A DNA stretch of 50,476 nt from Clostridia bacterium. Lineage in GTDB: Bacteria; Bacillota; Clostridia; Christensenellales; Aristaeellaceae. This document shows, piece after piece, positions 12,477 to 41,324 of the stretch; positions within the stretch are counted from its first letter, which is position 1; every line of letters starts with the position of its first letter. The stretch is taken from NCBI GenBank assembly GCA_017481825.1, contig JAFUOR010000002.1:1-50476 (forward strand), given 5' to 3'. The position numbers were made by a program, and so were the translations under genes. The notes under the pieces were generated by a model. It was not told the DNA's origin. It ran no database searches and saw nothing but the letters and a program-made list of their open reading frames with translations.

Positions 12477-13036
12477 GTCCGTGGGCCTCCCTTCGCCGCA
12501 AGGATGGCTCGTGCTGCGCCCACAAGGGCGGCTCCAAGGATGATGAAGATCACATTCACCCGCAGGAAGCAGGCGCAGAGGAAGGCCACGGTCATCAGTG
12601 CGATGTTCAGCCAGTCGCCGCCGCGCAGGACTTTGCCGCCAAGACCGGCCACTACATCTGCAATGACCGCCGCGACACCGCACTGCATGCCGCAAAGCGC
12701 TGCCTTGACCCACTCGTTTTCGCAAAACTGATTGTAAATGAGCGATATGAGGCTGATGATCACCACCGGCGGGATGATGGTGCCCAGCACCGCAGTGATC
12801 AATCCGGGAATTCCTGCGGCGCGACGCCCTGCCAGGATGGCGGCATTCACGGCGATTGCTCCGGGAGCCGATTGTGCCAGGGCGGTCATGTCCAGCATTT
12901 CATCCTCGGTGAGCCAATGAAGGTCATCTACCAGCTTGCGCTTCATCAGCGACACGATGACAAAGCCGCCGCCAAAGGTGAAGCTGCTGATGGAGAGCAT
13001 GGTGGTGAAGAGCGTCCACAGACGCGGTTTTTGCAT
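12473..13036 (-). CDS. Chromate transporter family subunit (first half)
   Basis: 187 residues. ATG at 13036 follows AAAGGAAC. FTFGGGFVIVSLMKRKLVDD, WLTEDEMLDMTALAQSAPGAIAVNAAILAG and GIPGLITAVLGTIIPPVVI are the CHR signature elements matching those of its partner, and membrane segments alternate along the whole chain. It begins 17 nt after the stop of the trypsin-like protein gene, so it is likely expressed with it, and is coupled to the second half by a 4-nt overlap. Confidence 0.9.
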   Translation of the reverse strand: MQKPRLWTLFTTMLSISSFTFGGGFVIVSLMKRKLVDDLHWLTEDEMLDMTALAQSAPGAIAVNAAILAGRRAAGIPGLITAVLGTIIPPVVIISLISLIYNQFCENEWVKAALCGMQCGVAAVIADVVAGLGGKVLRGGDWLNIALMTVAFLCACFLRVNVIFIILGAALVGAARAILAAKGGPRT

Positions 13037-25313: not shown

Positions 25314-26570
25314 ATGAACCGCAAGCCATCAAACCTGCGGCGCGCGATGGGCGTCGTGCTGTCGCTGTTCCTGACCCTGTCATGGTTTTCACCGATGCAG
25401 CAGACGCTGCGGACGCTGCCTGACCGTCTGACGCTGACCGCCGGACAGACGCAGACCTTCACCCTTGGCGGGCTGACGCTGTCGGGTGAAGCCGTCTCCG
25501 TCACCGCCTCGGAGGACGAAACCCTTGCTGCGGTAGGCGCCGTGAATATCGTCAGCGAAACCAGCGGCACGTCGGAGCTGCTGCTGTCCCTCTTCGGGAT
25601 CCCCCTGCGGCGGGTCGAGGTGGAGGTCAGCCCGGAAAAACGGCTGATCCCCGGTGGGCAGGCGCTGGGTGTGGCGATGCGAACCGACGGCGTGCTGGTG
25701 GTGGGTGTGAGTGAAATCAGTGATGGCGTGAGCCCAGCCCGGGACTGCGGCTTGCAGGCGGGCGACGTCATCCGCCGGGTGAACGGCAAGGCCATCACTA
25801 CCGCCGAGGAGCTGACTGCGATCATTACCGGAGCGGGCAGTCAACCACTGACCATCGAATATTGGCGGAATAATCAGGCCATCACGGCGACTCTGACCCC
25901 GCAAAAGGATGAAACCACCGGCGCCGTTCGCCTGGGTGCCTGGGTGCGCGACAGCACCGCCGGCGTAGGCACGCTCTCCTTCTACGACCCGGACACGGGG
26001 AAATACGCGGCGCTGGGTCACGCTATCACCGACGGCGATACGGGTGCGGTGCTGTCCGTCAGCCGGGGGCAGATTTTGAAGGCCTCCATCGTAGCGGTGC
26101 AGAAGGGGCAGAAGGGGGCGCCGGGCGAGCTCAAGGGCAGCTTCCTGCGGGAGGGTGAGGTGATGGGCGACATCCGCCGCAACTCCATCCTGGGCATCTA
26201 CGGTGAGATGGACGAGGCGGCAAGCAACCCGCTCTATCCGGACGGACTGCCCATCGGACTGCGCTCTGGTGTGCACACGGGTGCGGCGAGCATCCTGTCT
26301 TCGGTGGACGGCACGGGTATCCAGGAGTACGCCATCGAAATCACCCGCGTGAACCAGCAATCGAGCCCCGCCCCTAAGAGCATGGTCATCCGCGTGACGG
26401 ATGAGCGCCTGCTGGAAGCCACCGGCGGCATCGTACAGGGAATGAGCGGCAGCCCGATCCTGCAGGATGGACGGATTGTGGGCGCGGTGACCCATGTGTT
26501 TGTGAGTGATCCGACACAGGGGTATGGGCTGTATGTGGACTGGATGCTGCAGGAGGCGGAGAGCGAATAA
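25314..26570 (+). CDS. spoIVB: SpoIVB sporulation signalling protease
   Basis: 418 residues; ATG at 25314 follows GGGAGG. An N-terminal membrane anchor, a PDZ domain (about 120-200, with GLQAGDVIRRVNGKAITTAEE) and an S55 serine-protease domain with His236 (AALGHAITDGDTG) and Ser378 (GMSGSP), the same numbers as in Bacillus subtilis. In the forespore SpoIVB cuts SpoIVFA and so triggers sigma-K activation. The gene is intact, but its last 27 codons (from 26490) are copied three times downstream with different cargo between, so the 3' end seems to be an insertion site that is rebuilt each time. Confidence 0.96.
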   Translation: MNRKPSNLRRAMGVVLSLFLTLSWFSPMQQTLRTLPDRLTLTAGQTQTFTLGGLTLSGEAVSVTASEDETLAAVGAVNIVSETSGTSELLLSLFGIPLRRVEVEVSPEKRLIPGGQALGVAMRTDGVLVVGVSEISDGVSPARDCGLQAGDVIRRVNGKAITTAEELTAIITGAGSQPLTIEYWRNNQAITATLTPQKDETTGAVRLGAWVRDSTAGVGTLSFYDPDTGKYAALGHAITDGDTGAVLSVSRGQILKASIVAVQKGQKGAPGELKGSFLREGEVMGDIRRNSILGIYGEMDEAASNPLYPDGLPIGLRSGVHTGAASILSSVDGTGIQEYAIEITRVNQQSSPAPKSMVIRVTDERLLEATGGIVQGMSGSPILQDGRIVGAVTHVFVSDPTQGYGLYVDWMLQEAESE

Positions 26571-26571
26571 G

Positions 26572-26603
26572 AAAGTGCGCGCCTTGTTTGTGGCGCGCAC
26601 TTT
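26572..26603. terminator. Bidirectional terminator after spoIVB
   Basis: AAAGTGCGCGCC (26572-26583) and GGCGCGCACTTT (26592-26603) form a perfect 12-bp stem with an 8-nt loop between convergent genes. Confidence 0.88.
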
Positions 26604-26616
26604 ACATGTATCAGGT

Positions 26617-27837
26617 TTACTCGTGATGCTCCATGACAAATGACTTTATCTGCTTGTTAAAGCAAAGGAATAGCATGGGCAGAATAGAGATGATATTACC
26701 AGCGGCAAAGACCAGATACAGCGGGACAATATCTCCCAGAAAACCGTATATGACCGACGAGAGAGCTGCGCCCCCAACAGAGGCGGACTGGACAAAGCCG
26801 AGAATCGCACTTCTGTTTTTTTCTGGCAGCGCCAGCATGAGGGCGGCGCTGAATATGGTATTTCCTGCACTGTTTGCCAATCCGGCAAGGAAGATTGTTA
26901 CACACATAGGGATGAACTGCGTGGAGAAATAGGTGATGGCGTAGAAAACAACGGACAGCGAAAATCCGACCGCCATGATCCAGAAGCGCACTTTGGGTGA
27001 TAGCTTCACGATGCCCAGAACCAGCACACACAGCAAGGAGGCTGCTGTTGTGACCGCTGTCAGGTATCCGTACATATCGACGGTGAATCCCTTTTCCACG
27101 CAGAAGGGAAGCATCAGCATCATCGGCCCTGCGCACAGAAGATTCAGAAGCAATGCACAGGGAACAAAAAGTCGCAGACAGCCGTCGGAGAAGATAGTCT
27201 TGACAGCACTCTTTGTATCCTGTAGGATGCTGCCGACTGAAACCTGCGTGCCCTGCTGAAGAGTCCGGGGCACATGTACGAACATCTCCGTAACAGACGA
27301 ATACAGATTGCTCAGACCATTGATTACTACGATCAGGGGAACACCCAAGAATGCGACCATGGCGCCGCTGAAGGCTGTCCCCACCAGATTAATCAGAGAA
27401 GAGATGCCCGAATGGATGGATTGTCCGCGCACCATATCGTTGCGGGGGATGATGTCAAGCATCAGCGTGCTGACAGCCGGGGAATAAAAAACGCTGCCAA
27501 ATGCGGCCAGCAAGGCGACAGACAGTACGATAGGTACACTCAATGCATTCCGCCAAGCCAATATACCCACGCCCAGCATGAGTACGCCCTGCATGATATC
27601 GATGCCAACGATCAGCCATTTGCGGTTGCACTTATCCACGATGCTGCCGCATATCGGAGAGAGAAACATGGTCACAAACATCGATATGGAGGACATGATT
27701 CCCATCAGGGCACTGGAACCGGTCTGTTGATAGACCCAGTAGCCAATAGCCACGCTGTACATCAAATCACCGATGGTGCTGACGGCGTTTCCCTGTAGAA
27801 GGAGGATATAATCTTTATTCCATAGCTTCTTCTGCAT
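26617..27837 (-). CDS. MFS exporter of the macrolide-efflux (MFS_3) type
   Basis: 406 residues. ATG at 27837 has AAAGGAG 8 nt upstream; a GTG at 27855 would overlap that box. Twelve hydrophobic segments; near the start NAVSTIGDLMYSVAIGYWVY and PICGSIVDKCNRKWLIVGID match MFS_3 exporters such as Mef-type drug pumps. The substrate is not readable. The gene uses more A/T than spoIVB and lies between the native spoIVB end and the first 3'-end copy, so it is cargo of an insertion unit. It has its own promoter. Confidence 0.85.
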   Translation of the reverse strand: MQKKLWNKDYILLLQGNAVSTIGDLMYSVAIGYWVYQQTGSSALMGIMSSISMFVTMFLSPICGSIVDKCNRKWLIVGIDIMQGVLMLGVGILAWRNALSVPIVLSVALLAAFGSVFYSPAVSTLMLDIIPRNDMVRGQSIHSGISSLINLVGTAFSGAMVAFLGVPLIVVINGLSNLYSSVTEMFVHVPRTLQQGTQVSVGSILQDTKSAVKTIFSDGCLRLFVPCALLLNLLCAGPMMLMLPFCVEKGFTVDMYGYLTAVTTAASLLCVLVLGIVKLSPKVRFWIMAVGFSLSVVFYAITYFSTQFIPMCVTIFLAGLANSAGNTIFSAALMLALPEKNRSAILGFVQSASVGGAALSSVIYGFLGDIVPLYLVFAAGNIISILPMLFLCFNKQIKSFVMEHHE

Positions 27838-27867
27838 AAGGAAGACTCCTTTCACAATAACGAAAGA

Positions 27868-27896
27868 ATTATAACATAATCCTTTGCTGAAAGCAA
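27868..27896 (-). promoter_or_regulatory. Sigma-A promoter of the MFS exporter
   Basis: On the minus strand TTGCTT (27891-27896), a 17-bp spacer and TATAAT (27868-27873). Confidence 0.75.
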
Positions 27897-27940
27897 TGAT
27901 GGCAGCTTTGAAATAAGATTAGAATTGCGAGAGAAGCTTA

Positions 27941-28035
27941 GGTATCACCGCCACACCCATGTGTTTGTGAGTGATCCGACACAGGGGTATGGGCTGTATG
28001 TGGATTGGATGTTGGAGGAAGCTGCGGGAATTTGA
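27941..28035 (+). repeat. spoIVB 3'-end copy B (95 nt)
   Basis: It starts GGTATCACCGCCACAC and continues with the last codons of spoIVB (THVFVSDPTQGYGLYVDW...) to TGA at 28033-28035. Positions 27955-28004 are identical to 26490-26539 of the native gene over 50 nt, then the ends diverge (ending EEAAGI instead of QEAESE). It has no start codon and is not a gene by itself. Same length and frame as copies C and D. Confidence 0.93.
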
Positions 28036-28044
28036 GTATAAGAA

Positions 28045-28073
28045 AAGCGGCGGAGTGTCAACTCTGCCGCCTT
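28045..28073. terminator. Terminator for the small HTH gene
   Basis: AAGCGGCGGAGT (28045-28056) pairs with ACTCTGCCGCCTT (28061-28073) with one bulge; on the minus strand it runs into CTTTTCTTA. Confidence 0.65.
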
Positions 28074-28102
28074 ACAAGTATTGTTGAAGCGTACGATGAC
28101 GA

Positions 28103-28438
28103 TTATTTCTTCCTAAGAACATTCGAAACGGTCGATTGAGAAATATCCAGCATCGCTGCAATGGTTTCTTGCGTGAGCTTCTTTTTCGCAAGATCTTTGA
28201 TGACCTCGTTTCTCTGCGCGACTGAAAGGATTTCTGGGATCCTGTGAACTGTCTCCGTAACAACACCCGATGCTGTTATAGTCTTTATGAGAGTTCTGCC
28301 ATCGTCAAGCATAGCGCGTGCCATTCGCTCTCCGGTTTTCATGTTTGGCTTGAAGGCCAAAGAAATGATGTTAGCGGTGGTCTTTCCAATCTCTTTCAAG
28401 TCAGCATTCTTGAAGATGGTAAGCAAATCAATCCCCAT
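28103..28438 (-). CDS. Small HTH regulator
   Basis: 111 residues. ATG at 28438 follows GGAGGG. The C-terminus (about 72-111) is a clear helix-turn-helix: AQRNEVIKDLAKKKLTQ, TIAAMLDISQSTVSNVLRKK. The N-terminal 65 residues are charged and helical with no family I recognise. It is the only gene between spoIVB end copies B and C. Its promoter is embedded in repeated TAATATTA sites, which suggests it represses itself. Confidence 0.75.
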   Translation of the reverse strand: MGIDLLTIFKNADLKEIGKTTANIISLAFKPNMKTGERMARAMLDDGRTLIKTITASGVVTETVHRIPEILSVAQRNEVIKDLAKKKLTQETIAAMLDISQSTVSNVLRKK

Positions 28439-28449
28439 ACTCGCCCTCC

Positions 28450-28496
28450 TAATATTAGATTAATATTATTATAATATTATTTTAATACTCTGTCAA
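28450..28496 (-). promoter_or_regulatory. Promoter with TAATATTA operator repeats
   Basis: On the minus strand TTGACA (28491-28496), a 17-bp spacer and TATAAT (28468-28473). TAATATTA occurs at 28450-28457 and 28461-28468, and a perfect palindrome TAATATTAT-T-ATAATATTA spans 28461-28479 across the -10 box. This is a likely operator for the HTH protein it drives. Confidence 0.75.
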
Positions 28497-28520
28497 GCGG
28501 ATTTTTTGAAATTAAGCTTT

Positions 28521-28615
28521 GGTATCATCGACACACCCATGTGCTTGTGAGTGATCCAACCCAGGGATATGGATTGTATATCGACTGGATGATACAGGAG
28601 GCTGGTGCTCATTGA
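28521..28615 (+). repeat. spoIVB 3'-end copy C (95 nt)
   Basis: GGTATCATCGACACAC followed by the spoIVB terminal codons to TGA at 28613-28615 (ending IQEAGAH). It differs from the native end mostly at third codon positions (for example CCA ACC for CCG ACA) while the peptide SDPTQGYGLY is kept. Confidence 0.93.
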
Positions 28616-28668
28616 CAAACTATACATGAATGGATAATGAGTTCTACCGTTATTCACTATGGTTCATA

Positions 28669-28697
28669 TTGATGTCCGAAATTCGCTGTGGTATAAT
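28669..28697 (+). promoter_or_regulatory. Sigma-A promoter of the ECF / XRE-AAA-CYTH unit
   Basis: TTGATG (28669-28674), a 17-bp spacer and TATAAT (28692-28697). Confidence 0.75.
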
Positions 28698-28755
28698 TGG
28701 GCCAGGAAGAGACACAGGAAACTTCATCACAGTACGAGCGGAGGATGTGTATGGA

Positions 28756-29286
28756 ATGATCAACAAAAATGGTTTGTTTGTATGCGATGGGAATTGCTTT
28801 GTTCGTTGTTCTGACCATGTGTTTGCAGGTACCTGTATTTGAAAATTACTATCTATGTTTAGGATATGTGGTTGTTGTGGTATATTGCTATTCCTTTGGG
28901 CCAACAGGCGGTGCTGTGGTCGGTGCTGTAGGCGTTGTGATCTACTGCTTGTTGACAAACGGGCTGCGAGGTATGCCTGGCTGGGCCTTGGGCAATGTGC
29001 TGATCGGATTGGGTTTGGGTATTGTTTTCCGTGTGACAAAAAAGTTCCGAAGAAAACACTGCAATGGATGCTTAATGCTTTGGCTGTCGTTGTTTTTGTT
29101 GCTGCAGGGATTCTGATAGTAAAGTCTGGCGTTGAGTATGTTATTTATGGCCAGCCGTTCATGTTCAGGGTGGCAAAGAATATATATGCATTCATTGCTG
29201 ATGTGGTTCTTCTGTTGGTCAGCTTGCCGGTGTGCTGGAAAATGGATGAATATCTGCATCGGTATGTGAGGATAAGCAATGAATGA
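28756..29286 (+). pseudogene. ECF transporter S-component, frame broken
   Basis: The product is readable only across frames. Frame from ATG 28769 gives AMGIALFVVLTMCLQVPVFE, then YCYSFGPTGGAVVGAVG and TNGLRGMPGWALGNVLIGLG to a stop at 29116. From about 29040 the next frame continues the same protein (LNALAVVVFVAAGILIVKSG, then RVAKNIYAFIADVVLLLVSL) to 29286. The switch occurs at ACA AAA AAG. The N-terminus may also be broken: ATG 28756, nearer the GGAGG at 28740, gives MINKNGLFVC in a third frame. Together it is a 5-6-segment membrane protein like ECF S-components, which capture vitamins. Alternative: a -1 programmed frameshift at A-AAA-AAG. Confidence 0.65.
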
Positions 29287-30583
29287 TTTCAATTTTGGCA
29301 ACTATCTCTGCGGACTGCGGCGCAAGGCCGGCTTGACACAACGTGCGCTGGCACAGAAGCTCGGCGTTACTGACAAAGCTGTGTCAAAATGGGAAAACGG
29401 AGCGGCGAAACCTACGACTAATTTGATCAGAAAGCTTGCCGAGGTGTTTTGTGTATCAATCGAAGAAATACTGTATGCAAAGGAGACAAAAAGGAGTATG
29501 CAAATAACAAAGATTGTTATTACCGGTGGCCCTTGCGCAGGAAAAACCACGGCTATGAGTTGGATTCAGAATTTTTTTACCAAGCTGGGCTATGCTGTTC
29601 TGTTTGTTCCGGAAACCGCGACTGAATTGATCAGCGGCGGTCTTGCACCGTGGACTTGTGGAACAGGTGTGGATTTTCAGAAATGTCTGTTGCAGTTGCA
29701 GTTGGAAAAAGAAAGAGTGTTTGAGCAGGGAGCTGCAACCATGAAGGCTGATAAGGTGCTGATCGTTTGCGATCGCGGTGCGCTTGATAACAAAGCCTAT
29801 ATGACTGAGCTGGAGTTTGCTATGGTTGCTTCTGCTGTGAACAGTAACGAAGTGGAACTGAGAGATAATTACGACGCAGTGTTCCATCTTGTCACGGCAG
29901 CCAAGGGCGCGGAACAGTTTTATACAACAGCCAATAACGCAGCCCGCACTGAAACACCGGAACAGGCAGCTGCTCTTGACGATAAACTGATTGCCGCATG
30001 GACAGGACACCCTCATTTGCGAATTGTTGATAATTCGTCCGATTTTGAAGACAAGCTCAAACGCTTGGTGGCAGAGATTTCCGTGTTTCTGGGAGAACCT
30101 GCACCCTGTGAAATTGAACGTAAATATCTCATAGCATATCCCGACATTGCATGGTTGGAGGCGCAGCCCAACTGCCAGCGTGTTGAAATCATCCAGACCT
30201 ATCTGAAAACGGACGATGGAAGCGAAACCCGTGTTCGCCAGCGTGGTATGGACGGGCATTACATCTATTCTCAGACAACGAAAAAGACCGTCAGCGACAT
30301 GAAACGCGTTGAAATCGAGCGCAGGCTGAGCAAAGACGAATACCTTCGTTGCCTGATGGACGCCGATTCGGCTTGCCGGCCTATTCGCAAGACGCGTTAT
30401 TGCCTGACGTATGAGAATCAGTATTTTGAAATTGATCTGTATCCATTCTGGTCAGATCAGGCGATTATTGAAATCGAACTTCGGGAAGAAACGCAGGGAA
30501 TTCATTTTCCAGAACAGTTGGATATTTTGAAGGAAGTTACGACAGACCCAGCGTATAAGAATGTGGCGCTGGCCAGAATCTAA
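29279..30583 (+). CDS. XRE-AAA-CYTH fusion protein
   Basis: 434 residues. ATG at 29279 overlaps the S-component end by 8 nt; GAGGAT lies upstream. Three parts: XRE HTH at about 6-64 (TQRALAQKLGVTDKAVSKWE); a P-loop ATPase/kinase of the AAA_28/NadR kinase type at about 76-270, with GGPCAGKTT (83-91) and VCDRGALDNKAY; and a CYTH triphosphate-binding domain at about 276-432, with the EIERK signature (278-282). CYTH proteins hydrolyse or bind triphosphates such as thiamine triphosphate or polyphosphate. The layout suggests a regulator that phosphorylates a small molecule, possibly the ligand of the adjoining transporter; that is inference. Confidence 0.85.
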   Translation: MNDFNFGNYLCGLRRKAGLTQRALAQKLGVTDKAVSKWENGAAKPTTNLIRKLAEVFCVSIEEILYAKETKRSMQITKIVITGGPCAGKTTAMSWIQNFFTKLGYAVLFVPETATELISGGLAPWTCGTGVDFQKCLLQLQLEKERVFEQGAATMKADKVLIVCDRGALDNKAYMTELEFAMVASAVNSNEVELRDNYDAVFHLVTAAKGAEQFYTTANNAARTETPEQAAALDDKLIAAWTGHPHLRIVDNSSDFEDKLKRLVAEISVFLGEPAPCEIERKYLIAYPDIAWLEAQPNCQRVEIIQTYLKTDDGSETRVRQRGMDGHYIYSQTTKKTVSDMKRVEIERRLSKDEYLRCLMDADSACRPIRKTRYCLTYENQYFEIDLYPFWSDQAIIEIELREETQGIHFPEQLDILKEVTTDPAYKNVALARI

Positions 30584-30585
30584 TC

Positions 30586-30680
30586 GGTATCATCGCCACA
30601 CTCATGTGTTTGTCAGTGACCCTACTCAGGGGTATGGCCTGTATGTGGATTGGATGCTGCAGGAGGCAAATGCAATCTGA
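30586..30680 (+). repeat. spoIVB 3'-end copy D (95 nt)
   Basis: GGTATCATCGCCACAC followed by the spoIVB terminal codons to TGA at 30678-30680 (ending LQEANAI). It starts 3 nt after the XRE-AAA-CYTH stop. Several synonymous differences (GAC CCT ACT for GAT CCG ACA) separate it from the native end. As the outermost copy it may be the oldest. Confidence 0.93.
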
Positions 30681-30715
30681 CCCTGTGCAGTGGACTTCTA
30701 CAGCAGCTTGCGCAT

Positions 30716-30842
30716 TCTCCCTCAGTCGCCTGCGGGCGACAGCTCCCTCCCGGAGGGGGCCAAGAGTTGCCGCGGATTGTCTGTTTCCTGCAGCTTGTTC
30801 CGAACTGCTGCAAAGGGGCAGAAAGGCTCCCTCTGGGGGAGC
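30716..30842. repeat. MITE-like short repeat
   Basis: CTCCCTCAG (30717-30725) and CTGGGGGAG (30833-30841) are terminal inverted repeats with one mismatch. Inside are GTCGCCTGCGGGCGAC and GCTCCCTCCCGGAGGGGGCC palindromes. The CTCCCTCAGTC...GACAGCTCCCTC pattern is a familiar dispersed repeat of gut Clostridia genomes. Confidence 0.6.
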
Positions 30843-30844
30843 GG

Positions 30845-30925
30845 TTTGTCAAGGGTTAATTTATCTACAAATAAAAAAATCCGAACTTGATTCCGATTGG
30901 AAATGGGTTCGGATTTCTTTATTTC
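30845..30925 (+). repeat. Direct repeat and hairpin repeat, left copy
   Basis: TTTGTCAAGGGTT (30845-30857) recurs at 41321-41333. The 49-nt block 30877-30925, with the hairpin AAATCCGAAC/GTTCGGATTT, recurs at 41391-41439 with 4 differences. Same order and orientation; the spacing between the two parts differs. Confidence 0.75.
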
Positions 30926-31118: not shown

Positions 31119-31958
31119 ATGGAGACTATTGAGCGTAGTATTGATCTCGGTAAAGCTGAGCCGACCGTAGAAGCTGTCTCTACGCATATCCCGTCTGAGA
31201 TTCAAGCAGACACACTGTTTACGTTCATGAAGCAACCTGAATACCTTCATACGATACTTCAGAAGGCTATGATTTCACCACGCTATTGTACAGAGGACAT
31301 TGCCTATCTACAGATTGAAGGCATATCACGCGTCTCTATCCCGATGAAATGTTTTTGTGACATCAATCTTCATCGGTTAGGTAAGCATTTGGCATGCTAT
31401 GGTTATTACGGCATTGCCTTTACGAAAGAATGGGGAATGCATAAGCATATCCAGCCAGTACAGTATATTAACCCTGCGTCCGATTTGTGTGCAGACTATT
31501 CGGCTTCATTTAATCATGCTCTACAGGCAGCAGGAGCATCACATAGCGAGATCGAAAAGCATTTGAAGGGACTCATGCTGCATCAGTTGATGTACCTAAA
31601 ACCTTATTCCGGAAAATTTGAGAACAGGGTGAAATGCGAGTTTGAAGATCGCTGCTTTGCAGACGAATGTGAATGGCGATACATTCCTAATCTTGAAGCT
31701 TCTGATTTCCAGCCCCTGTACTTCGATGAGCAGCTTATCAAGATCAAAGTTCCAGACGAAATGAGCAAAGCAATGGCACGGGAATCATCATTGGCACTGA
31801 ACTTCGAGTACGGTGAAGTCAAGCATATCATAGTCCGGTCTCGCAATGACTTTCATGCTCTTACAGATGTCATTGACGCATTGTCGATTGACAGCTCGAT
31901 CAAGTACGACTTGATTTCAAAGGTTATTGTCTGGGATGAGGCAAAGGGGGATTTCTGA
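31119..31958 (+). CDS. abiGi: AbiGi-like abortive-infection antitoxin
   Basis: 279 residues; ATG at 31119 follows AAGGGG. The N-terminal half matches the AbiGi pattern: TLFTFMKQPEYLHTILQKAM, SPRYCTEDIAYL, SIPMKCFCDINLHRLGKH, YGYYGIAFTKEWG and HIQPVQYINPASDL. In Lactococcus AbiG, AbiGi pairs with AbiGii and the system stops phage growth by killing or arresting the infected cell; Pfam describes AbiGi as the antitoxin. The next gene overlaps by 1 nt (TGATG), as expected for a toxin-antitoxin pair. The AT-rich composition is unlike the core genes, which fits recent transfer. Confidence 0.75.
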   Translation: METIERSIDLGKAEPTVEAVSTHIPSEIQADTLFTFMKQPEYLHTILQKAMISPRYCTEDIAYLQIEGISRVSIPMKCFCDINLHRLGKHLACYGYYGIAFTKEWGMHKHIQPVQYINPASDLCADYSASFNHALQAAGASHSEIEKHLKGLMLHQLMYLKPYSGKFENRVKCEFEDRCFADECEWRYIPNLEASDFQPLYFDEQLIKIKVPDEMSKAMARESSLALNFEYGEVKHIIVRSRNDFHALTDVIDALSIDSSIKYDLISKVIVWDEAKGDF

Positions 31959-33199
31959 TGTTTTTTGATTTTGATAAGGTCTTCTCAGATAAGCGTCAGA
32001 CGGGATTGCCAATACCACAGGCAATGGTAGATCACCTGAATGATCAGCTTCCGTCTGGATTGAAATATGTCAAGGATAAGCAATGCCTTCACGTTGAGCC
32101 TGTGAACGGTACTTCCTTGCGATTTAGTGGCATTCTCTTTGATCCTACAGAAGAACAGAAAGCAATATTGGGCGATAAGTATACTGAGAAGGATGTTCTG
32201 GCTTATTCGTATAACGCTCAAGAGCGAATTCCATTAAAATTAGAACGGGATGGCATGATAATCATCAATGATAAAGAACTCCCCCTGAATATGATGGTAC
32301 AGTCTCCACATAATCCTGTAAACTTTGTCGACGGTTCCTTGTATATGTTCCCAGAGAAATTCGATCCTCCGTTTACCCTATGTGTTGGCTCTGGGAAGTA
32401 CGAGCAGACTCTAACGGTTAGTCGGATCCCCAATAAAAGCGTACATACTTGGGCGTTTGCATCTGACAAGAGCAAGCCGCTGATAATCAGTTATCAGCTC
32501 GATACAGAAAAGGATACCATGTCCATGAACCTTTCCTTTAATCTGTCGGCAGCTCGGTCGATCCGGGACTATGTCGTAGCTATGGCGATATATAATGCCT
32601 TTATTGAAGGAACTGGATTTATTGGCGGTGTTCCTTTTCAAGGCCGTCTGAATGGAGAGCAAGTTCAGAAATATGATGAGGATAGCTTGTCTTTCTGGGA
32701 GAAGGTATTACAAATCGAGGACATATTGGATGTATGCTTTATTCCTCCGCATGATGATGTAGGTTTTGAAACAATATGTGATGTTGAACAGTTATATCAG
32801 AACCTTATTAATCAGGTGCCGATAAGGGATACAAATAAAATAGATTCAATTGATGGCGACTGGACGCTTGAACGCCAAAACAGTATTGAGAACTCTATTG
32901 GCCAAGCATTGCATTTTGAGTTTGAAGCCACTGCGAGAATCTCTTTGTTTAGTGTTGATCTTTCATTACCTTGCTTTCTCATGGTATTTAATTCCATACT
33001 TACTAAGGTCGTTCAAGAAGAAGGAAAGCAAAAGTTAATTTTGGACGATGAAAGTGAAACAAAACCGCGGTTTACATCCATGCTATGCTTCAAAGACAAT
33101 GATAGCATGGTAGCTTATAAAAAAGGTGACCGCAATACGATGCTTACGTCATTCCACGATGCCAAGCGTGCACGAGAATACGTAATCAGTACATCCTGA
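31958..33199 (+). CDS. abiGii: AbiGii-like abortive-infection toxin
   Basis: 413 residues, close to the roughly 400 of lactococcal AbiGii. ATG at 31958 shares its A with the stop of the antitoxin gene. It starts MFFDFDKVFSDKR followed by IPQAMVDHLNDQLPSGLKYV, like the opening of AbiGii-family toxins. No catalytic motif stands out to me, so the call rests on length, the opening and coupling to the AbiGi-like gene. AbiGii toxins are described as nucleotidyltransferase-type or bacteriostatic. A hairpin terminator follows. Confidence 0.65.
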   Translation: MFFDFDKVFSDKRQTGLPIPQAMVDHLNDQLPSGLKYVKDKQCLHVEPVNGTSLRFSGILFDPTEEQKAILGDKYTEKDVLAYSYNAQERIPLKLERDGMIIINDKELPLNMMVQSPHNPVNFVDGSLYMFPEKFDPPFTLCVGSGKYEQTLTVSRIPNKSVHTWAFASDKSKPLIISYQLDTEKDTMSMNLSFNLSAARSIRDYVVAMAIYNAFIEGTGFIGGVPFQGRLNGEQVQKYDEDSLSFWEKVLQIEDILDVCFIPPHDDVGFETICDVEQLYQNLINQVPIRDTNKIDSIDGDWTLERQNSIENSIGQALHFEFEATARISLFSVDLSLPCFLMVFNSILTKVVQEEGKQKLILDDESETKPRFTSMLCFKDNDSMVAYKKGDRNTMLTSFHDAKRAREYVISTS

Positions 33200-33379: not shown

Positions 33380-34660
33380 TCACTCAATCCTGCGATAGCG
33401 ATATACTGTTCGAGTCTCTACATCTCGTTCTGAGTTTTCTCCAATCCACGAGTCTGACCACTCCGACCATTTGCCAAACGTATTCTTCGTCACCACATCT
33501 CTGGTACGATAGCGATACAGCGTCCTTATTTGCACTTCACGTGTGGATGTAGCCGTTACCGCTGTGGGAGACCAACTGGACCATGAGCCAGTAACCGGCA
33601 CCTGCTGCTCAGTACGGGTGCGATAGCGATAGTATGTTATTGTTTCTACCTTTTCCTTTTTGGTTTGGTAATACCAACTAACGCCACCAGACCTGTATCT
33701 CGCGTGGCCATCTTTGGTGCCGTCTTGAGGAAGCGGACTTGTCGTTGTTTTGTATTCCCATTTTCCACTCCCTTCAACGTATTTACTCCCTTTATATTCG
33801 GCGTATGAATTCTGCCATCCATTCTCGCTATGCTTATAATGCCAATGTTTATAGGAATAGGTATAGGTAACATTTTCTTCCGTTTTGGTTTCTACATCTC
33901 GTAGGGCCGTTTCGGAAGTAGCGGTAGTACTCCAGTCGCTCCAAGAACTCCAATTGCTATACTGCGTTTGATTGGTAGTATCGCGATAGCGGTATTCAGT
34001 CTTTGTTTCAACATTTCGTGTTGAGGATTCAGATGCTGCAGTAGTACTCCAATCACTCCAGCTGCTCCAGCTTGAATAGTCTTGATTCTTATATATAGTT
34101 CTGGAACGGTATTGTGTCTTCTTTTCAACTTGGGTTGAATTGTTTGCTTCCACAGGAGTTGTGTTCCAACTACTCCATGCACCCCAAGAAGTAGCATCTT
34201 CGGTTACGATTTCTCTATTGTCATCTGCCTCAATACCGATCAGAGCGTTCAAAAACGCTTCGTAATCGTTATATTGCTCTGCGTCAGAGACAGATGCTGC
34301 CGTAAAATCGTCTGGATATTGTTTAGCTGACATATCGGAAAAATCAATGTAGACAGTCTTAATTGGCTCGTTACACAGTGCATTCGCAACATAACCTTCC
34401 AGCGCATCACTGCGAACAATTTCCCAAGCGTTCAGCTGTTCTGCATCGTCAGACAACTTATACAGGATTACAATACCCTCACCCGGGAAGAAGCAAATTG
34501 TGATCCCTGTATCATATACGTCGGTATTCTCTGACATCAGGACGGGTTGACCGTATTGTTCTACCAACCATTTCGGCTGTGTTTCATTGCCAGCTAATGC
34601 TGTGGATGATACGCACAGTATGAACAGTATGAACGTGCATATCCACCGTTTTACCCTCAT
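33380..34660 (-). CDS. Secreted WSxWS-repeat protein
   Basis: 426 residues; ATG at 34660 follows AAAGGAGG. Signal peptide MRVKRWICTFILFILCVSSTALA. After a non-repeated region (about 24-150) come repeats of the form WSxWSxWSTT...ETxxRxVETKTxYRYR: clear units near 157, 198, 236, 350 and 395, each pairing a Trp-Ser run with a Tyr-Arg run. A 90-residue block between units (TYSYKHWHYKHSENGWQNSY to GGVSWYYQTKKEKVE) is shared with the next gene upstream. WSxWS resembles thrombospondin type-1 repeats, which bind glycans or proteins. Second gene of a two-gene operon. Confidence 0.75.
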   Translation of the reverse strand: MRVKRWICTFILFILCVSSTALAGNETQPKWLVEQYGQPVLMSENTDVYDTGITICFFPGEGIVILYKLSDDAEQLNAWEIVRSDALEGYVANALCNEPIKTVYIDFSDMSAKQYPDDFTAASVSDAEQYNDYEAFLNALIGIEADDNREIVTEDATSWGAWSSWNTTPVEANNSTQVEKKTQYRSRTIYKNQDYSSWSSWSDWSTTAASESSTRNVETKTEYRYRDTTNQTQYSNWSSWSDWSTTATSETALRDVETKTEENVTYTYSYKHWHYKHSENGWQNSYAEYKGSKYVEGSGKWEYKTTTSPLPQDGTKDGHARYRSGGVSWYYQTKKEKVETITYYRYRTRTEQQVPVTGSWSSWSPTAVTATSTREVQIRTLYRYRTRDVVTKNTFGKWSEWSDSWIGENSERDVETRTVYRYRRIE

Positions 34661-34679
34661 GACTCATGCCTCCTTTATG

Positions 34680-36296
34680 TTATTTCTGCAAGTCACGGTA
34701 ACGGTAATAGGTTACCTGTTCCGTTGTTTCTTTCTTCGTTTCCCAGTACCAACTCACACCATTTACTTTATAGCGCTTGTGGCCATCTTTAGTATCTGTT
34801 TGTTTCAGAGGTTTGTCCGTCGTCTTATACTCCCACTTTCCGCTGCCTTCTACATACTGACTACCCTTGTACTCTGCGTAAGAGTTTTGCGCACCGTTTT
34901 TCTTGTGAGTATAGTGCCAATGCTTATAGGTGTATGTAGTTTTCGTTACAGTTTCTGTCTTTGTTTCCACCTGACGGGTCTCGCTGGCTGTCACTTTCGT
35001 GGTGCTCCAGTCACTCCAACTTCCCCATGTGCCAGTTGATTCTTCCGACTCGTCGTAGTCATCGTCTATTTCCTGGTCTTCACAATCGTCGTAGTCTTCA
35101 TCCTCAGAGGGCTTGCTCGTTTCACTGTATACCGTAAAAGTTTTTTGTACCAGTGTTTCCTGTACGGTTTCCCCACTTGCAGTTACTGCTGTAGCAGTAA
35201 GTATGTAGGTGTAAGTACCAGACGCCAGTTTTCCAAACTTCAAATCATTGTTGATGGAATTGCGAATATCATGAGATGTAGCATTCAGCGAACGACTGCC
35301 ACTCAAAACCGTCTTGCCAGACGCGCTGATCACTTGTCCAGATACTCTCGTCAGGGTGCAGTTTTCTGCCGTAATAACGCCACGCAAGCCGTAGTTGCTT
35401 CCTTTTTTCAGCGAGCTCGGTGCTGACACGGAACTAATGGAGATCTTATACTGTTTCTTGGGGAGCGTGCCGCTGACATTAACACGCTGTCCAATAACAG
35501 TTTCTTCCACTTTGTGATAACCATTTTCAGCAGTCGCTATGACGCTGTAATAGTGGCTGCCGCCGTCCAATTGCTTCGTTTCCGGCATAGTGCCAACGTT
35601 AGCGCCCAAATCGAAGGTCGTACTGTTGGGGGTAAAGGTTCTCACGGTCGTACCGTTGATTTGCACAACAACCTTTGTCAGTTTTCCATGACTGGTTTTG
35701 ATTTTCCCCGTAATAGCAAAGCCGGTTCCTGCGGTCATGGCGCTTGTACCAGAGCTTCCGGAAATGCTGATTTCAGGCTTCTCATAACTTTTGCCATCAT
35801 CTGAAATGGAAAAGGTGGAAGAAGCAATCGTCTCGGTTTCAGTATCGATCTTGCCTTTATATGTTACACTTAATGAGTATCTGTAATCACCAGTCGGCAA
35901 ACTTGCAATGTCCTGTGCAATTGCAGACGAATAGTCCCCCAGGTTTACTTGCTTTTTGTTGATACTATACTCCCTATTGGCGACATTCTTTCCCCAAATT
36001 CCGGTCTCTGAAATGCTAAACCTAATACTAAGTATTTTACCGCTGTTTCCAGTCAAACTCTGCAGTTTCAATGTTCCAGATACTGGGAAAGCAGTTCCCT
36101 TCTTGATTGAACCGGAGGGTGATGTTACCTTGGAGTAAGTCAGAGTAGTCGAAATAATCCCCTCGCCTTGATATATGAACCAGTAGTGATCTGTCACTCT
36201 ATCAAACAAGCTCTTTGAGTCGGTCTGTGTATCGGCATATGCCAGACTGGGAAAAGCCAGCAACAGGATCATCACAAATACTAACATTCTTTTCAT
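34680..36296 (-). CDS. Secreted Ig-like protein with WSxWS tail
   Basis: 538 residues; ATG at 36296 follows GGGAGGGG. Signal peptide MKRMLVFVMILLLAFPSLAYA. Three Ig-like beta domains (about 50-170, 175-285, 290-400; each with a SxxxLKKGxxxxxxGxI-type opening, such as SGSIKKGTAFPVSGTL and APSSLKKGSNYGLRGVI) are followed by an acidic linker (SEDEDYDDCEDQEIDDDYDE) and a C-terminal WSDWS unit plus the 90-residue block shared with its partner. It lies 19 nt upstream of the partner gene, so the two are co-expressed. Probably a surface adhesin or binding protein carried as island cargo. Confidence 0.75.
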   Translation of the reverse strand: MKRMLVFVMILLLAFPSLAYADTQTDSKSLFDRVTDHYWFIYQGEGIISTTLTYSKVTSPSGSIKKGTAFPVSGTLKLQSLTGNSGKILSIRFSISETGIWGKNVANREYSINKKQVNLGDYSSAIAQDIASLPTGDYRYSLSVTYKGKIDTETETIASSTFSISDDGKSYEKPEISISGSSGTSAMTAGTGFAITGKIKTSHGKLTKVVVQINGTTVRTFTPNSTTFDLGANVGTMPETKQLDGGSHYYSVIATAENGYHKVEETVIGQRVNVSGTLPKKQYKISISSVSAPSSLKKGSNYGLRGVITAENCTLTRVSGQVISASGKTVLSGSRSLNATSHDIRNSINNDLKFGKLASGTYTYILTATAVTASGETVQETLVQKTFTVYSETSKPSEDEDYDDCEDQEIDDDYDESEESTGTWGSWSDWSTTKVTASETRQVETKTETVTKTTYTYKHWHYTHKKNGAQNSYAEYKGSQYVEGSGKWEYKTTDKPLKQTDTKDGHKRYKVNGVSWYWETKKETTEQVTYYRYRDLQK

Positions 36297-36386
36297 GTTA
36301 TTCCCCTCCCACTTTATCATCGTCGAAAGCAAGTTGTGTTTGTTGCTCATGATATCCTATACCCCTTTCTTGTGATATATTTGCTA

Positions 36387-37324: not shown

Positions 37325-38947
37325 TCATAGGGTTTCATTGCGCTGACGGTACGCTTCTCGATGGACTTCTTCCTGCTGAGGTGCGATGACCTGCTTTGCT
37401 GTGCGATCCAGCAGATTTTCCAGCTCGTTTGTATTCTGCGATTCCTCCAAGGTGTTTCGCAGAGAGGATGCGCCGCTCTCAGTACGGCTTGGCAACGCAT
37501 CAGGAATGACCTTGCGAACCCAATAGCGTACTGTCTTCAGCTCGTCCAGTTCAGCCTGCACGGCTTCCACATCGGGACGCAGCACTTCACCTTCCTGTTC
37601 AAGCTGTGCCTTTTCTGCATGTAGCGACTTACGGTCAATCGGGTGGGATACACCAAACTTGTGCAAGAGTCGCTGTGCTTTCTTGTACTGTTCAAGCTCG
37701 TCAGCATGGGTGGTGGCGAAGCGTTCCTTTGCGCCCTTCCAGCGGATACTGCTGTACTCATCGTAAACAGGATGCAAGTCATGAATTGTCTTGTCAGCCG
37801 CCAGCAGAGCATCAATATCACGGATGCGCTGCTCCTTGCTGTGTACAGTCCTGCGCAGCTCATTCAAACGAGCGCCGGTGCGGGACAAGTACGAGACAAG
37901 TGTATGTACCGTGTCGATCTTCCGCGCTTGCAGAAATGTAATGGCGTTGTGGACGGCCTGCAAGTCCTTCAGTGACGCTTTTGTCTGCGCCTTATGTGCC
38001 CAGAATTCCCGGTCAGCTTTGCGAAGATCAAGGTAGCTGAGCAGCACTTCTCCAAGGTTGTAATCGTCCGGGTTGGAGATGGTTTCGTGCCGGGTCAGTG
38101 TCTCCTTAATGCCTTGCAGCCACTCGACCAAAGCAGCAATGCTTTTCTGCAAACTGGCGATGATGGCATTGACACGCTTGATTTCCCGGTTGCGATTGCC
38201 GCGAGTTGTGGGGATGCCTTTGTGCTCCAGCGCAGCCGATTCCGGGCCAAGATGTATCTGTGGTTCCAGATCTATAATGCCTTGACGCTCGTAGGATCGC
38301 ATATCAATTCGTTCAGGTCGCCCGGCGGCTTCCAGCGCTTTGTTCTGCGCAACTTCCCATTCATGCCGCCAGATTTCGCCATTCTGCGGATTACTCCAGT
38401 CCACGGTGTTCTGGCGGTCACGCAGCCAGCGGCCGTTTTTGCCACGGATGCGCTCTCCGTTTTCATCCAGCACATAGGTGGTTTTCGTCTTGGGTAGCCA
38501 GCGACCTTGCTCGTCCATTGCACGCATGGTCAGCAGCAGATGCACATGGGGATTCCCGTCGTGTTCATCGTGATAATACAGATCGCAGATCATGCCTTTG
38601 GAGACAAATTGCGCCTGACAATAGGCACGGATCAGCGAAAGATTTTGCTCATAGGTCAGCTCCTTCGGCAGCGTGATGACAAACCGTCGGGCGGTCTGCG
38701 CGTCAGCACGTTTCTCTGCCTCATCGACGGCGTTCCACAGAGTCTGTCGGTCGGCGTACTCCGCCGGAGCGTTGGGCGGCAGCATGACCTCTGTGTAGCG
38801 AACACGCTGTGGGCTGCTGTGGGGATATTTCCATTTGCCGTCGTGAGCTGAATAGAGCTTCTGTCCAAGGCAGTAGGAAGCGGCAGCCATGACGGACTGA
38901 CCGCTGCCCCGACTGACGACGGAGATGGAATAATGGGGACATGGCAT
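37325..38947 (-). CDS. MOBQ-type relaxase (MobA/MobL family)
   Basis: 540 residues; ATG at 38947 follows GGAGGCGAC. The N-terminal relaxase domain (about 1-230) begins YSISVVSRGSGQSVMAAASY and has the family words FVITLPKEL and GNPHVHLLLTMR, whose His residues bind the metal. The rest is a long charged coiled-coil region (about 245-520). Relaxases nick oriT and pilot single-stranded DNA into the recipient, relying on a helper conjugation system. It is read away from the oriT-like region just upstream. Confidence 0.92.
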   Translation of the reverse strand: MPCPHYSISVVSRGSGQSVMAAASYCLGQKLYSAHDGKWKYPHSSPQRVRYTEVMLPPNAPAEYADRQTLWNAVDEAEKRADAQTARRFVITLPKELTYEQNLSLIRAYCQAQFVSKGMICDLYYHDEHDGNPHVHLLLTMRAMDEQGRWLPKTKTTYVLDENGERIRGKNGRWLRDRQNTVDWSNPQNGEIWRHEWEVAQNKALEAAGRPERIDMRSYERQGIIDLEPQIHLGPESAALEHKGIPTTRGNRNREIKRVNAIIASLQKSIAALVEWLQGIKETLTRHETISNPDDYNLGEVLLSYLDLRKADREFWAHKAQTKASLKDLQAVHNAITFLQARKIDTVHTLVSYLSRTGARLNELRRTVHSKEQRIRDIDALLAADKTIHDLHPVYDEYSSIRWKGAKERFATTHADELEQYKKAQRLLHKFGVSHPIDRKSLHAEKAQLEQEGEVLRPDVEAVQAELDELKTVRYWVRKVIPDALPSRTESGASSLRNTLEESQNTNELENLLDRTAKQVIAPQQEEVHREAYRQRNETL

Positions 38948-38959
38948 AAGTCGCCTCCT

Positions 38960-39130
38960 TCAGCGCCGTGCGCTGTAACAGTGGGTAGACGCCACCGGCG
39001 GCGCAGGGAGGGCTTGCCTCCCTGTTGAAGTCATCAGGCTTGCCGGATGACTTCGGGCACCACGCAGTGCCCCTCGGAGAGCGCAATGTACGGGCACCGT
39101 ACGTATAATTGCGCCCTCACAAAGTGAGGG
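38960..39130. other. oriT-like region
   Basis: Between relaxase and DUF3847 genes lie stacked inverted repeats: CAGGGAGG/CCTCCCTG, GAAGTCATC/GATGACTTC, GGGCAC/GTGCCC, GTACGG/CCGTAC (39088-39093 with 39097-39102) inside GCGCAAT/ATTGCGC (39081-39087 with 39108-39114), and CCCTCAC/GTGAGGG. The words TAATTGCGCCCTC (39106-39118) resemble the RSF1010-type MOBQ nick region TAAGTGCGCCCT. Exact nick position not determined. Confidence 0.7.
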
Positions 39131-39131
39131 G

Positions 39132-39518
39132 TCAGCTTGTCTGAACATCGTTGCCCCGGAAAGGTGCCCTTCCGTACCCAGACATGGCGCTCTGCACCAG
39201 CTCCTCCACGGTGCCATCGGCCTCACCGCGCCGGATCGCCAGCATATCGCTGACCAGCTTTTGCGTCCGGCTGAAGCTGAACACATAGTTCAGGAACAGC
39301 TTGATGTCCTCGTCGGTCAGCAGCTCGGCCTTGTCCTGAAGGTGTTGGGTCAGTTCGCCGCCACGGAAATAGAGGTAGGCGTTGCGCTCCTTGCGGGCAG
39401 TCTCGTTGATTTGCTTGCGCAGGTCTTTTTTCTCTGCTTGAAGCCTTGCGATCTCCTGATCAACATGATCTGCCGCTGCCTGCAGCTCCACAGTGGTCTT
39501 GTTCTTTTTTCTGCTCAT
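39132..39518 (-). CDS. DUF3847-type mobilization accessory protein
   Basis: 128 residues. ATG at 39518, with AGGAGGAACC upstream, is preferred over an earlier ATG at 39572. The N-terminal half is a charged coiled coil (VDQEIARLQAEKKDLRKQIN), then NAYLYFRGGELTQHLQ and FLNYVFSFSRTQ, typical of the small proteins encoded next to MobA/MobL relaxases in Clostridia. It probably helps assemble the relaxosome; not proven. The oriT-like region lies just downstream. Confidence 0.8.
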   Translation of the reverse strand: MSRKKNKTTVELQAAADHVDQEIARLQAEKKDLRKQINETARKERNAYLYFRGGELTQHLQDKAELLTDEDIKLFLNYVFSFSRTQKLVSDMLAIRRGEADGTVEELVQSAMSGYGRAPFRGNDVQTS

Positions 39519-39559
39519 GGGTGGTTCCTCCTGAAATGTTGGATTGTTATTGAAATGGT

Positions 39560-39592
39560 AACGGCGACCCACTGCATGAGCGGGTCGCCGTT
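39560..39592 (-). terminator. Hairpin after the large serine recombinase
   Basis: AACGGCGACCC (39560-39570) pairs with GGGTCGCCGTT (39582-39592), 4 nt beyond the recombinase stop codon on the minus strand. The T-run is weak. Confidence 0.6.
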
Positions 39593-39596
39593 TGCG

Positions 39597-41324
39597 TTAT
39601 GCGGTTGCGTTGGTGTCTTGGCTGTCAGCCTGTACTGCTTTTGATTCACGCTGGGCTTTCAGTTCCTTGCGGCGCTGGTACTTCTTCCGGTACTCAGCTC
39701 GTTTGGCTTCCAGTTCATCCTGTGCAGCCTGCTCCTCAGGTGAAAGTTGCACCGTTTCCTCCGGAATGCAGAACTGCCCGATGAATTTGAAGTAGATGTC
39801 CACCTGCTGTGTACGGTGGCCGCTGCTGCGGTCAGGGGCATGGACGATGATCTTCTCCACGAACTCTTTAATCATGGGTGTGGTCAGTTCTGTGAAGTCA
39901 GTGTACCGTTTCGTCAGTTCAAGGAACTTGTCGATGCGGTCTTCATCCTGCATATAGTTGTCCAGCTCCCGCTGCCCATCCACAATGCGCTGCTCCAAAT
40001 CGGCTTGCTCCGCATCATAGTTGGCAGCCATCATATCAAAACGTTTCTCCGTGATCTTACCTGTAGCATACGACTCATACAGTTTTTGAAACAGTGCATC
40101 CAGCTCAGCACAACGCTTCAGGTCACGGGCAAGACGCCGCTTCAGTTCCTTGGCTGCGGCTTCATGCTGAATCTGAGCTTCGGCGCGGATTTGCTGTGCA
40201 AAAGCATTCGGGTCTGCAATGGCATACTGACTGATCTTGCGGATGGCTTCCAACAGCAGCGTGCGCACAGCCTTGGTGCTGATGTGGTGATTGGTGCAGA
40301 TTTTCGTTTCTCTCAGGCGGGTGCGTGAGTACGTCGAACAGTTATAGGAATCCTGCTGTAAACCAGATGCCTCATTATCCTGTTCATTCCTGCGACGGGA
40401 GTTATACATCTTCTCGCCGCAGTCTGCACAAAACATCAACCCTGTCAACGGGTTGGCCAAGCCGGTGGAATCAATGCGCGTCTTTGTCCCCACAACATGC
40501 TGCGCCAGATGCCATGTATCAGGATCAATAATCGCCTCATGGGTGTTCTCGAAGATAACCCATTCCTCGGGCGGGTTCTTCTTCTTTTTCTTGCTCTTGT
40601 AGGACACCTTATGGGTTCTGAAATTGACCGTGTGCCCCATGTATTCTTGCCTGCTCAGGATTTTCAACACGGTCGTCCCCACCCAGTCATACTTACGCGC
40701 AAGATCACACCTGCTTCGTGGAGAGCTGCTGTTCTGCTTTGAGAAATAGTAACCAGGGCTCTCTACCTTCGCGCGCGTCAGGATGGTTGCAATCTCATAC
40801 GGCCCATGTCCCTCAACAGAAAGATGGAAAATCCGGCGCACAACTGCCGCCGCCTCTTCATCCACAATCCAGTGATTATGATCTGCAGGATCTTTCTTGT
40901 AGCCATACGGTGCGTTGGTTGTAATGGGCTTCCCGGATCTGCCTTTCTGTTGAACAGCCGCCCGCATCTTCCGGGATTGATCGCGTAAGTACCACTCGTT
41001 CATGATGTTCATAAACGGTGTAAACTCATTACTGGTCGGATCATTGCTATCTACATTATTGGCAATGGCGACGAATCGTACCTCATGCTGCCGGAACAAC
41101 ACCTCGGTGAAATATCCGGTTTGCAGATAGTTACGACCAATACGGCTCATGTCCTTCACCAGAACAGTAGCAACTTTGCCCGCTTCGATGTCTGACACAA
41201 GCTGCTTCCATGCCGGACGATCAAAGTTGCCGCCCGACCAGCCGTCGTCGGTGTAATGAACGCAGTTGGAAAAGCCATGCAGATCAGCATAGCTCTGGAG
41301 GTAACTTTTTTGTGATTCAATTTG
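39597..41324 (-). pseudogene. Large serine recombinase, 5' end missing
   Basis: From a GTG at 41198 the frame encodes 533 residues: end of the resolvase domain (VATVLVKDMSRIGRNYLQTG), recombinase domain, a zinc ribbon (MFCADCGEKMYNS with a later Cys) and a coiled-coil C-terminus. The protein homology continues upstream in frame without a start codon: HYTDDGWSGGNFDRP and, before it, ESQKSYLQSYADLHGF, to about 41321. There it meets an in-frame TGA inside the direct repeat TTTGTCAAGGGTT. The first 20-25 residues, including the catalytic Ser, are absent. So it is inactive here, unless recombination restores the 5' end. Confidence 0.85.

Follow-up and report, generated by a model that had tools for sequence, protein, structure and literature searches.

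Very probably, large serine recombinases (LSRs) use the 3' end of the sporulation gene spoIVB as their attachment site, and the array behind this gene in a Clostridia contig (JAFUOR010000002.1, positions 1-50,476; the whole stretch is hereafter named the window, and its genome G000) consists of three stacked cassettes without an LSR of their own. That these cassettes were moved in trans by such a recombinase has, in our judgement, about an even chance of being correct. A repeat search of the window returned one family of four 95-nt gap-free copies, at 26476-26570 (the native 3' end), 27941-28035, 28521-28615 and 30586-30680. The three displaced copies are in direct orientation and keep the frame through THV-V-SDPTQGYGLY to their own TGA at 28033, 28613 and 30678, as an earlier reading of the letters (the sequence-only reading) had described. 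The gene and the units behind it are the following:

25314..26570, plus strand: intact spoIVB, 418 aa, the proposed docking gene (Pfam Peptidase_S55, E 5e-85; NCBIfam TIGR02860 above its cut-off)
26490..26570, plus strand: native spoIVB tail, the B' side of the intact B|B' site and start of unit 1, with the putative crossover region CATGTG at 26493-26498
26490..27954, plus strand: cassette 1, 1465 nt (spoIVB tail, MFS transporter and P arm)
26617..27855, minus strand: MFS transporter, cargo of cassette 1 (Pfam MFS_1, E 2e-24)
27941..27954, plus strand: left arm (P half-site) GGTATCACCGCCAC
27955..28534, plus strand: cassette 2, 580 nt (displaced tail, small helix-turn-helix (HTH) gene and P arm)
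28103..28438, minus strand: HTH protein of 111 aa carried by cassette 2 (matches to Trp_repressor and HTH_23 at the Pfam cut-offs)
28521..28534, plus strand: left arm (P half-site) GGTATCATCGACAC
28535..30599, plus strand: cassette 3, 2065 nt (displaced tail, open reading frame (ORF) resembling the S component of energy-coupling factor (ECF) transporters, HTH/AAA/CYTH gene and P arm)
28769..29116, plus strand: the ECF S-component-like ORF, 115 aa, perhaps broken, as another frame overlaps (Pfam PF07155, E 2e-11)
29279..30583, plus strand: protein with HTH, AAA_28 and CYTH domains (Pfam)
30586..30599, plus strand: left arm (P half-site) GGTATCATCGCCAC
30600..30680, plus strand: most distal of the displaced spoIVB tails, closing the array on the right and presumably the oldest

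In the window's SpoIVB, GMSGSP starts at residue 376 and THV at residue 393. Displaced copies at the window's position (T393-H-V) are termed type A, and those at M377|S378, right before the serine of GMSGSP, type B. We take S378 to be the catalytic serine of SpoIVB. The first junction of the window array is the intact spoIVB (B|B'), and all later junctions are P|B'. No recombinase was detected with Pfam among the ORFs of 26490-30680, and a profile of 18 copies found no further spoIVB tail elsewhere in the window at E<=1. The window units are probably LSR-less cassettes bounded by attachment (att) half-sites, in a layout at spoIVB like that of the staphylococcal cassette chromosome (SCC) and of cis-mobilizable elements (CIMEs).

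Within the 50,476 bases there are three occurrences of the 14-nt arm GGTATCAYCGMCAC, solely at the three displaced copies, and in 100 dinucleotide shuffles of the window both its mean and its largest count were 0. Native spoIVB lacks the arm and has GATTGTGGGCGCGGTG at the corresponding place, so the earlier remark on a left flank absent from the native gene holds. A local segmental duplication within one lineage could also produce tandem direct copies of the spoIVB end such as these. However, the arm is not part of spoIVB, and displaced copies with arms and cargo in common are found in seven genera besides the window's (G410 counted), one of them from another family; this explanation can be practically discarded.

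Within the genus, 15 of 18 genomes could be assessed; in the others the contig ends ~150 nt past the gene (G005), the contig starts inside it (G012) or no spoIVB was shown (G008). Ten of the 15 (G000, G002, G003, G004, G007, G010, G011, G013, G014 and G016) carry one to three displaced copies behind spoIVB. None was found there in G001, G006, G009, G015 and G017, where 3 to 18 kb of downstream DNA was covered (just 3.3 kb in G017). Relatives with zero, one or several copies, as anticipated by the sequence-only reading, are thus present. The strict pattern returned 11 stretches from the genome contigs of 84,980 species, all titled as metagenome-assembled genome, Clostridia or Clostridiales.

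For the codon comparison, 15 well-kept copies were taken from the 19 displaced type A copies of the genus, the four degenerate or truncated ones being dropped. In 20 of 23 codons the commonest residue was kept by at least 13 of the 15 copies, with differences at third positions, which agrees with the previous description of mostly synonymous changes, but divergence was greater in the codons right before the stop. The Thr codon was ACG in 12 of 15 native genes and in none of the 15 displaced copies (Fisher p 1e-5, a guide only as the genomes are related), indicating that the exchange lies to the right of this codon. The copies (n=18) form an imperfect 38-bp palindrome around CA|TG, the best of the centres scanned, with an average of 0.59 of 19 positions against a mean of 0.255 over all centres. 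This type A centre is not common to the native genes, and no clear palindrome was seen in type B copies. The Thr-codon contrast and the palindrome centre together point to CATGTG as the probable exchange point.

Four arrays have at least two displaced copies, and in three of them (L035, L039 and L040, the window being the exception) the outermost copy is degenerate, as expected if new units enter beside the gene. The drop in GC content at third codon positions in the native tail was 0.21 in the genus genomes with arrays and 0.07 in the others (10 versus 5, p 0.04); over all loci the difference was not significant (16 versus 11, p 0.07; four loci left out).

Cargo is shared between genomes and ends at the copies. 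The MFS cassette is present in G000 and G014 (L040, behind spoIVB) and also behind spoIVB in G244 (L222, G244:C62), a member of a different genus, with 77% identity over 2447 nt to L040. This alignment spans the gene body, the cargo and the next tail, and by it a displaced type A tail was recognized in G244, which also bears a type B copy on a different contig. The HTH cassette is second in the array of G000 and first in that of G016 (L065), the HTH gene and the right end being in common. A PfkB-family kinase cassette stands at position 3 in G010 and G002 and at position 2 in G014, a cassette for a 393-aa protein is common to G003 and G011, and a giant protein comes first after spoIVB in G006 but takes the second place in G002. 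The right end of the cargo match fell -42 to +91 nt from the THV codon of the next tail in all nine cassette pairs (a tenth comparison, L204, begins at a contig end). Of the six pairs in which the left end was testable, five had it at -47 to +2 nt relative to a tail and the HTH pair was 151-298 nt off; in three pairs the match continued into the spoIVB body. Cargo boundaries therefore coincide with the copies, as the sequence-only reading required of a docking site.

Comparison with 1 kb of the hosts' spoIVB body showed that several cargoes are more alike than their hosts: 87.8, 89.9 and 88.8% identity for PfkB versus 67.4, 81.7 and 70.3% for the gene, 93.0 versus 82.2% for the 393-aa cargo, and 81.3 versus 74.4% for a DUF4258 cargo (two further pairs have no host value). 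Hence, some cassettes have moved between species, the MFS and HTH cassettes not being counted among these. A chromate-transporter cassette is 92.6% identical in G061 and G084, which belong to different genera, and a Septu PtuA/PtuB pair makes up one of the type B cassettes, that of G018.

The window's own genome contains another copy on a different contig (C39:36767-36848), adjoined by a degenerate copy. In this region (L033, G000:C39:24000-39624; copy at 12835, minus strand) there is a second MFS cassette, 87% identical to that of the window; it is flanked by an arm and tail at one end and by degenerate ones at the other. L033 and L038 were considered as a second attachment site, and this was rejected on account of the degenerate arm and tail to the right of the L033 unit, which may be array debris, a rearrangement or mixed assembly (genome contamination 5.4%).

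Beyond the genus, the 45-aa SpoIVB end was sought in 200 genomes of the family and matched in 102, native genes counted. Clear displaced copies of type A occurred in G028, G030, G119, G138, G156 and G199, with weak ones in G189, whereas type B copies, which start 15-16 codons earlier, were found in G018, G061, G084 and G169. The type B arm differs from that of type A and is mostly GTTGTCCCTAATGACAATCACTC. In 308 family genomes the strict type A pattern matched eight and the type B pattern gave five matches (G018, G061, G169, G244 and G298); G298 has the gene followed by three tandem type B copies, the last one partial. Viral contigs gave no match to the type A patterns or to the type B pattern. 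A looser type B pattern gave four viral-contig matches, which were judged to be chance because none continued in the spoIVB frame.

At the same positions, larger elements split spoIVB. Body, element and tail are on one contig in G256 and G265 and on two contigs in G156, G061 and G410, and only the left end is seen in G014:C38. Against the empty site of G161, the G256 sequence aligned over 1031 nt at 95.3%, was interrupted by ~12.4 kb and resumed in the tail (97.9% over 95 nt), with an 11-nt overlap at the target. The corresponding values for G265 against the empty site of G146 were 85.5% over 1119 nt, ~7.1 kb and 81.4% over 97 nt, with a 13-nt overlap. The cut SpoIVB proteins read THVQVI... 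in G256 and G265 and THVCVNP in G156. G014:C38 (L068) bears a second spoIVB, 49-51% identical to the window's, cut at THV (THVCVRP) and followed by a ParA-like gene; it is perhaps a contamination of that genome. The motif GGYATCAT is common to P and the reverse complement of P' in G256, G265 and G156, forming inverted repeats, and the window arms (GGTATCAC or GGTATCAT) share the arm motif of these type A half-sites. Cargo of the G265 element includes an arabinofuranosidase C-terminal domain and a radical-SAM/SPASM protein, and that of G256 a SpoIIE/CHASE2 protein. The earlier proposal that cargo stacks without harm to sporulation would therefore apply at most to the cassettes, behind an intact spoIVB, but not to the LSR-bearing elements, which split the gene.

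LSR genes were found at displaced tails of both types. In MT836038.1 (type B) there are three serine recombinase ORFs, one of them without a Resolvase-domain match, and the last ends ~43 nt before a type B tail. An LSR trio is followed in G061 by the arm and ATGAGCGG up to the contig end, and in G410 directly by the type B tail. In both genomes the spoIVB body stops at GIVQGM and runs into sequence containing GGGACAAC, the inverted partner of the arm; arm and partner are thus seen at both ends in G061 and at the left end in G410. In G156 (type A) a single LSR, P0005, ends beside the displaced tail. Resolvase and Recombinase domains were present in P0001, P0002, P0004 and P0005, and P0003 had no Resolvase match.

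The type B LSR query matched two of 200 family genomes at E<=1e-70 (G061 and G046) and four of 395 genomes order-wide at E<=1e-90, and of these four only the G410 locus has a spoIVB tail. P0005 was matched 21 times, in 20 of the 308 genomes of the family. Among the five matches with at least 65% identity (P0005 counted), four abut a spoIVB tail, G243 being the exception; no such tail adjoins the remaining 16, of which one lies at a contig end. At most 7 (family, type B), 3 (order-wide) and 4 (P0005) candidates were scored per genome, so that absences in these searches are soft. The LSRs that end at displaced spoIVB tails are likely the recombinases of the site. Copies in relatives, cargo ending at the copies and LSRs abutting displaced tails together support the docking role that the sequence-only reading had assigned to spoIVB.

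Two side observations concern LSR relatives at other sequences. In L110 (G046:C18) a type B LSR relative is followed by TTGTCATTTGCTTGACTTCA, which is much like the type B arm, at sequence that is not a spoIVB tail. Distant type A LSR relatives in L239, L240, L244-L247, L249 and L252 abut a common sequence, ATGAATTCTTC...CTGCC or similar, after the LSR stop; this is perhaps another common target gene.

Inside the genus, an LSR beside a type A arm was sought with the pattern GGYATCAYCGMCAY, which matches all 18 genomes, more than the reversed control. Six GGTATCA matches lay outside the known arrays (GGC matches excluded), all in coding sequence and five of them in one gene of five genomes. Twelve genus stretches, comprising 22 of 86 PF07508 matches, were inspected, and in the nine that could be judged no arm followed the last LSR. 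The window's own LSR (39597-41198), which lies beside MobA/MobL, has no arm in its stretch either.

A mechanism consistent with these data would be the following. A visiting element would supply the LSR in trans, and the enzyme would join circular units to spoIVB at CATGTG. Every insertion would furnish the gene with a new tail, and the previous tail would end up beyond the incoming cargo. Since each insertion would push the old tail outward, the newest unit would adjoin spoIVB.

Several points weigh against an LSR attachment site with cassettes moved in trans. The left end of a cassette is B' and not P', and there is no ordinary attL. A reaction of B|B' with P|B' is non-standard for LSRs, and cassette movement would require it. 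No relative of P0005 was found at E<=1e-50 in the 18 genus genomes, the window's included (at most 4 candidates scored per genome). In G010, a genome with three displaced copies, PF07508 gave no match at E<=1e-5, for which reason this array may be immobile. The left half-site (P') of G014:C38 lacks GGYATCAT, and PfkB and AAA/CYTH relatives in G003 (L036) have no adjoining copies. Two of the four shared genus cassettes measured are barely above the host spoIVB (MFS, 74.9 versus 71.5%; HTH, 75.3 versus 74.1%). The genomes are drafts, with contigs often broken at repeats, and the 80-nt tails would allow homologous recombination as well.

If homologous recombination in the 80-nt tail inserted or swapped cargo, with no recombinase acting at the site, the likeness of the left tail parts within one genome (the L065 pair; the native and first copies of the window) would be accounted for, as from gene conversion. 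Nevertheless, the conservation of the arm, which lies beyond the stretch of homology, its lack in native spoIVB and the LSR genes at the same junction would be left unexplained, and we consider this route improbable.

A stronger competitor accepts the attachment site and regards the units as remnants of full LSR elements without recombinase and left end, now immobile and shaped by descent, deletion and homologous exchange. Excerpts of PMC5704250 describe such decay and accretion: CIMEs, units without integration genes, persist between att sites, stacked by tandem accretion with integrative and conjugative or integrative and mobilizable elements. That no type A LSR was found in the genus (with at most four candidates scored per genome) and the degenerate last copies also speak for relics. 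Compact cassettes of the same kind at differing array positions (PfkB, HTH), and the chromate and MFS cassettes, each in two genera, speak against them, since independent decay would not yield matching ends. We hold this possibility to be real, though clearly on the weaker side of even. The attachment site with mobile, LSR-less cassettes remains our preferred reading.

This reading can be extended, tentatively and with rather more doubt than confidence, to a third cassette system beside integrons and SCC. In such a system, units running from a gene tail to a P half-site would be traded between species by serine recombinases provided in trans by visiting elements, the reaction being B|B' x P|B' and restoring spoIVB in every case. 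LSR elements would instead break spoIVB (type B right before the GMSGSP serine), tying their residence to sporulation.

Other features were noted downstream of the window array. Genes of the abortive-infection antitoxin and toxin families AbiGi and AbiGii (31119-33199) stand immediately after the last displaced tail. A dispersed repeat, CTCCCTCAGTCGC..., lies at ~30700-30860 after that tail and likewise after tails in L037, L039 and L043, and it precedes some arms. Two neighbouring minus-strand ORFs (33380-36350; 426 and 556 aa) contain Trp/Ser-rich repeats and have no Pfam match at E<=0.01. Positions 37325-41198, on the minus strand, encode a MobA/MobL relaxase, DUF3847 and the LSR with DUF4368, and are probably a mobilizable element.

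If correct, these results identify spoIVB as a place in the chromosome of gut Clostridia where serine recombinase elements dock, two positions of this one gene serving two kinds of LSR element. They would join two topics usually kept separate, namely arrays of tandem cargo downstream of a gene end and the interruption of sporulation genes by elements. The cargo (transporters, regulators, one type B Septu defence pair) makes the arrays worth searching for shared accessory genes, and the matched att sites and LSRs are candidate tools for Clostridia. No description of spoIVB as an integration or docking site was found in searches of the open-licence literature, in agreement with the sequence-only reading.

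Cargo-only relatives of SCC occur in tandem. SCC and the Enterococcus cassette chromosome (ECC) at rlmH resemble the system described here in recombinase class, in the use of a conserved gene's 3' end as attB and in the displaced ends as direct repeats. The parallel with SCC drawn by the sequence-only reading thus stands as to serine recombinases and gene-end docking, but these elements are not SCC: P0001, P0002, P0003 and P0005 score only 32-97 bits against the CcrA/B/C models (cut-offs 700-900), and the window cassettes carry no recombinase. The target is spoIVB instead of rlmH, the window units are of 0.6-2.1 kb and comprise one or two genes each, and they carry ~80 nt of the gene's end. 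An intact target gene is true of the cassettes, whereas the LSR elements split spoIVB. According to an excerpt of PMC6222049, ECC and SCC att sites have a central TATCATAA in common; the window arm has TATCAY, and the shared letters, which are off centre in the window arm, may be chance.

A CIME keeps attL and attR and has lost its integration genes. In the window, integration genes are absent and an attR-like P|B' is present, but the left junction is B|B' (the intact gene site) instead of attL, and one- or two-gene units with the same ends occur in several genera. The LSR gene at a junction with att half-sites (four of the five close type A LSRs and three type B cases), the inverted P/P' half-sites and, for type A, the occupied and empty sites are those of an LSR integrative element, from which the window units differ in having no LSR. 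Integron cassettes are also tandem small units beside a fixed site and common to several genomes. However, the window sites are LSR half-sites with a gene end, the cargo lies in both orientations, and LSRs are seen at the junctions in place of the integron's tyrosine integrase, though no search aimed at IntI, attC or tyrosine recombinases was made.

The element gin splits the sporulation gene gerE and carries three serine recombinases, as stated in an excerpt of PMC5595907. Elements of the gin/skin type thus resemble the present ones in that a sporulation gene is split by a serine recombinase element, and the gin trio is like the type B trio. They differ in that the target here is spoIVB, recombinase-free cassettes also use the site and the window's spoIVB is intact; skin and gin are excised during sporulation, which restores the gene, whereas such excision from spoIVB would be hypothetical. 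The spoIVB gene acts in the forespore, and excision there would therefore be inherited by the spore. Taken together, the layout of the arrays is closest to SCC/ECC and to CIME accretion, and the LSR elements are closest to gin.

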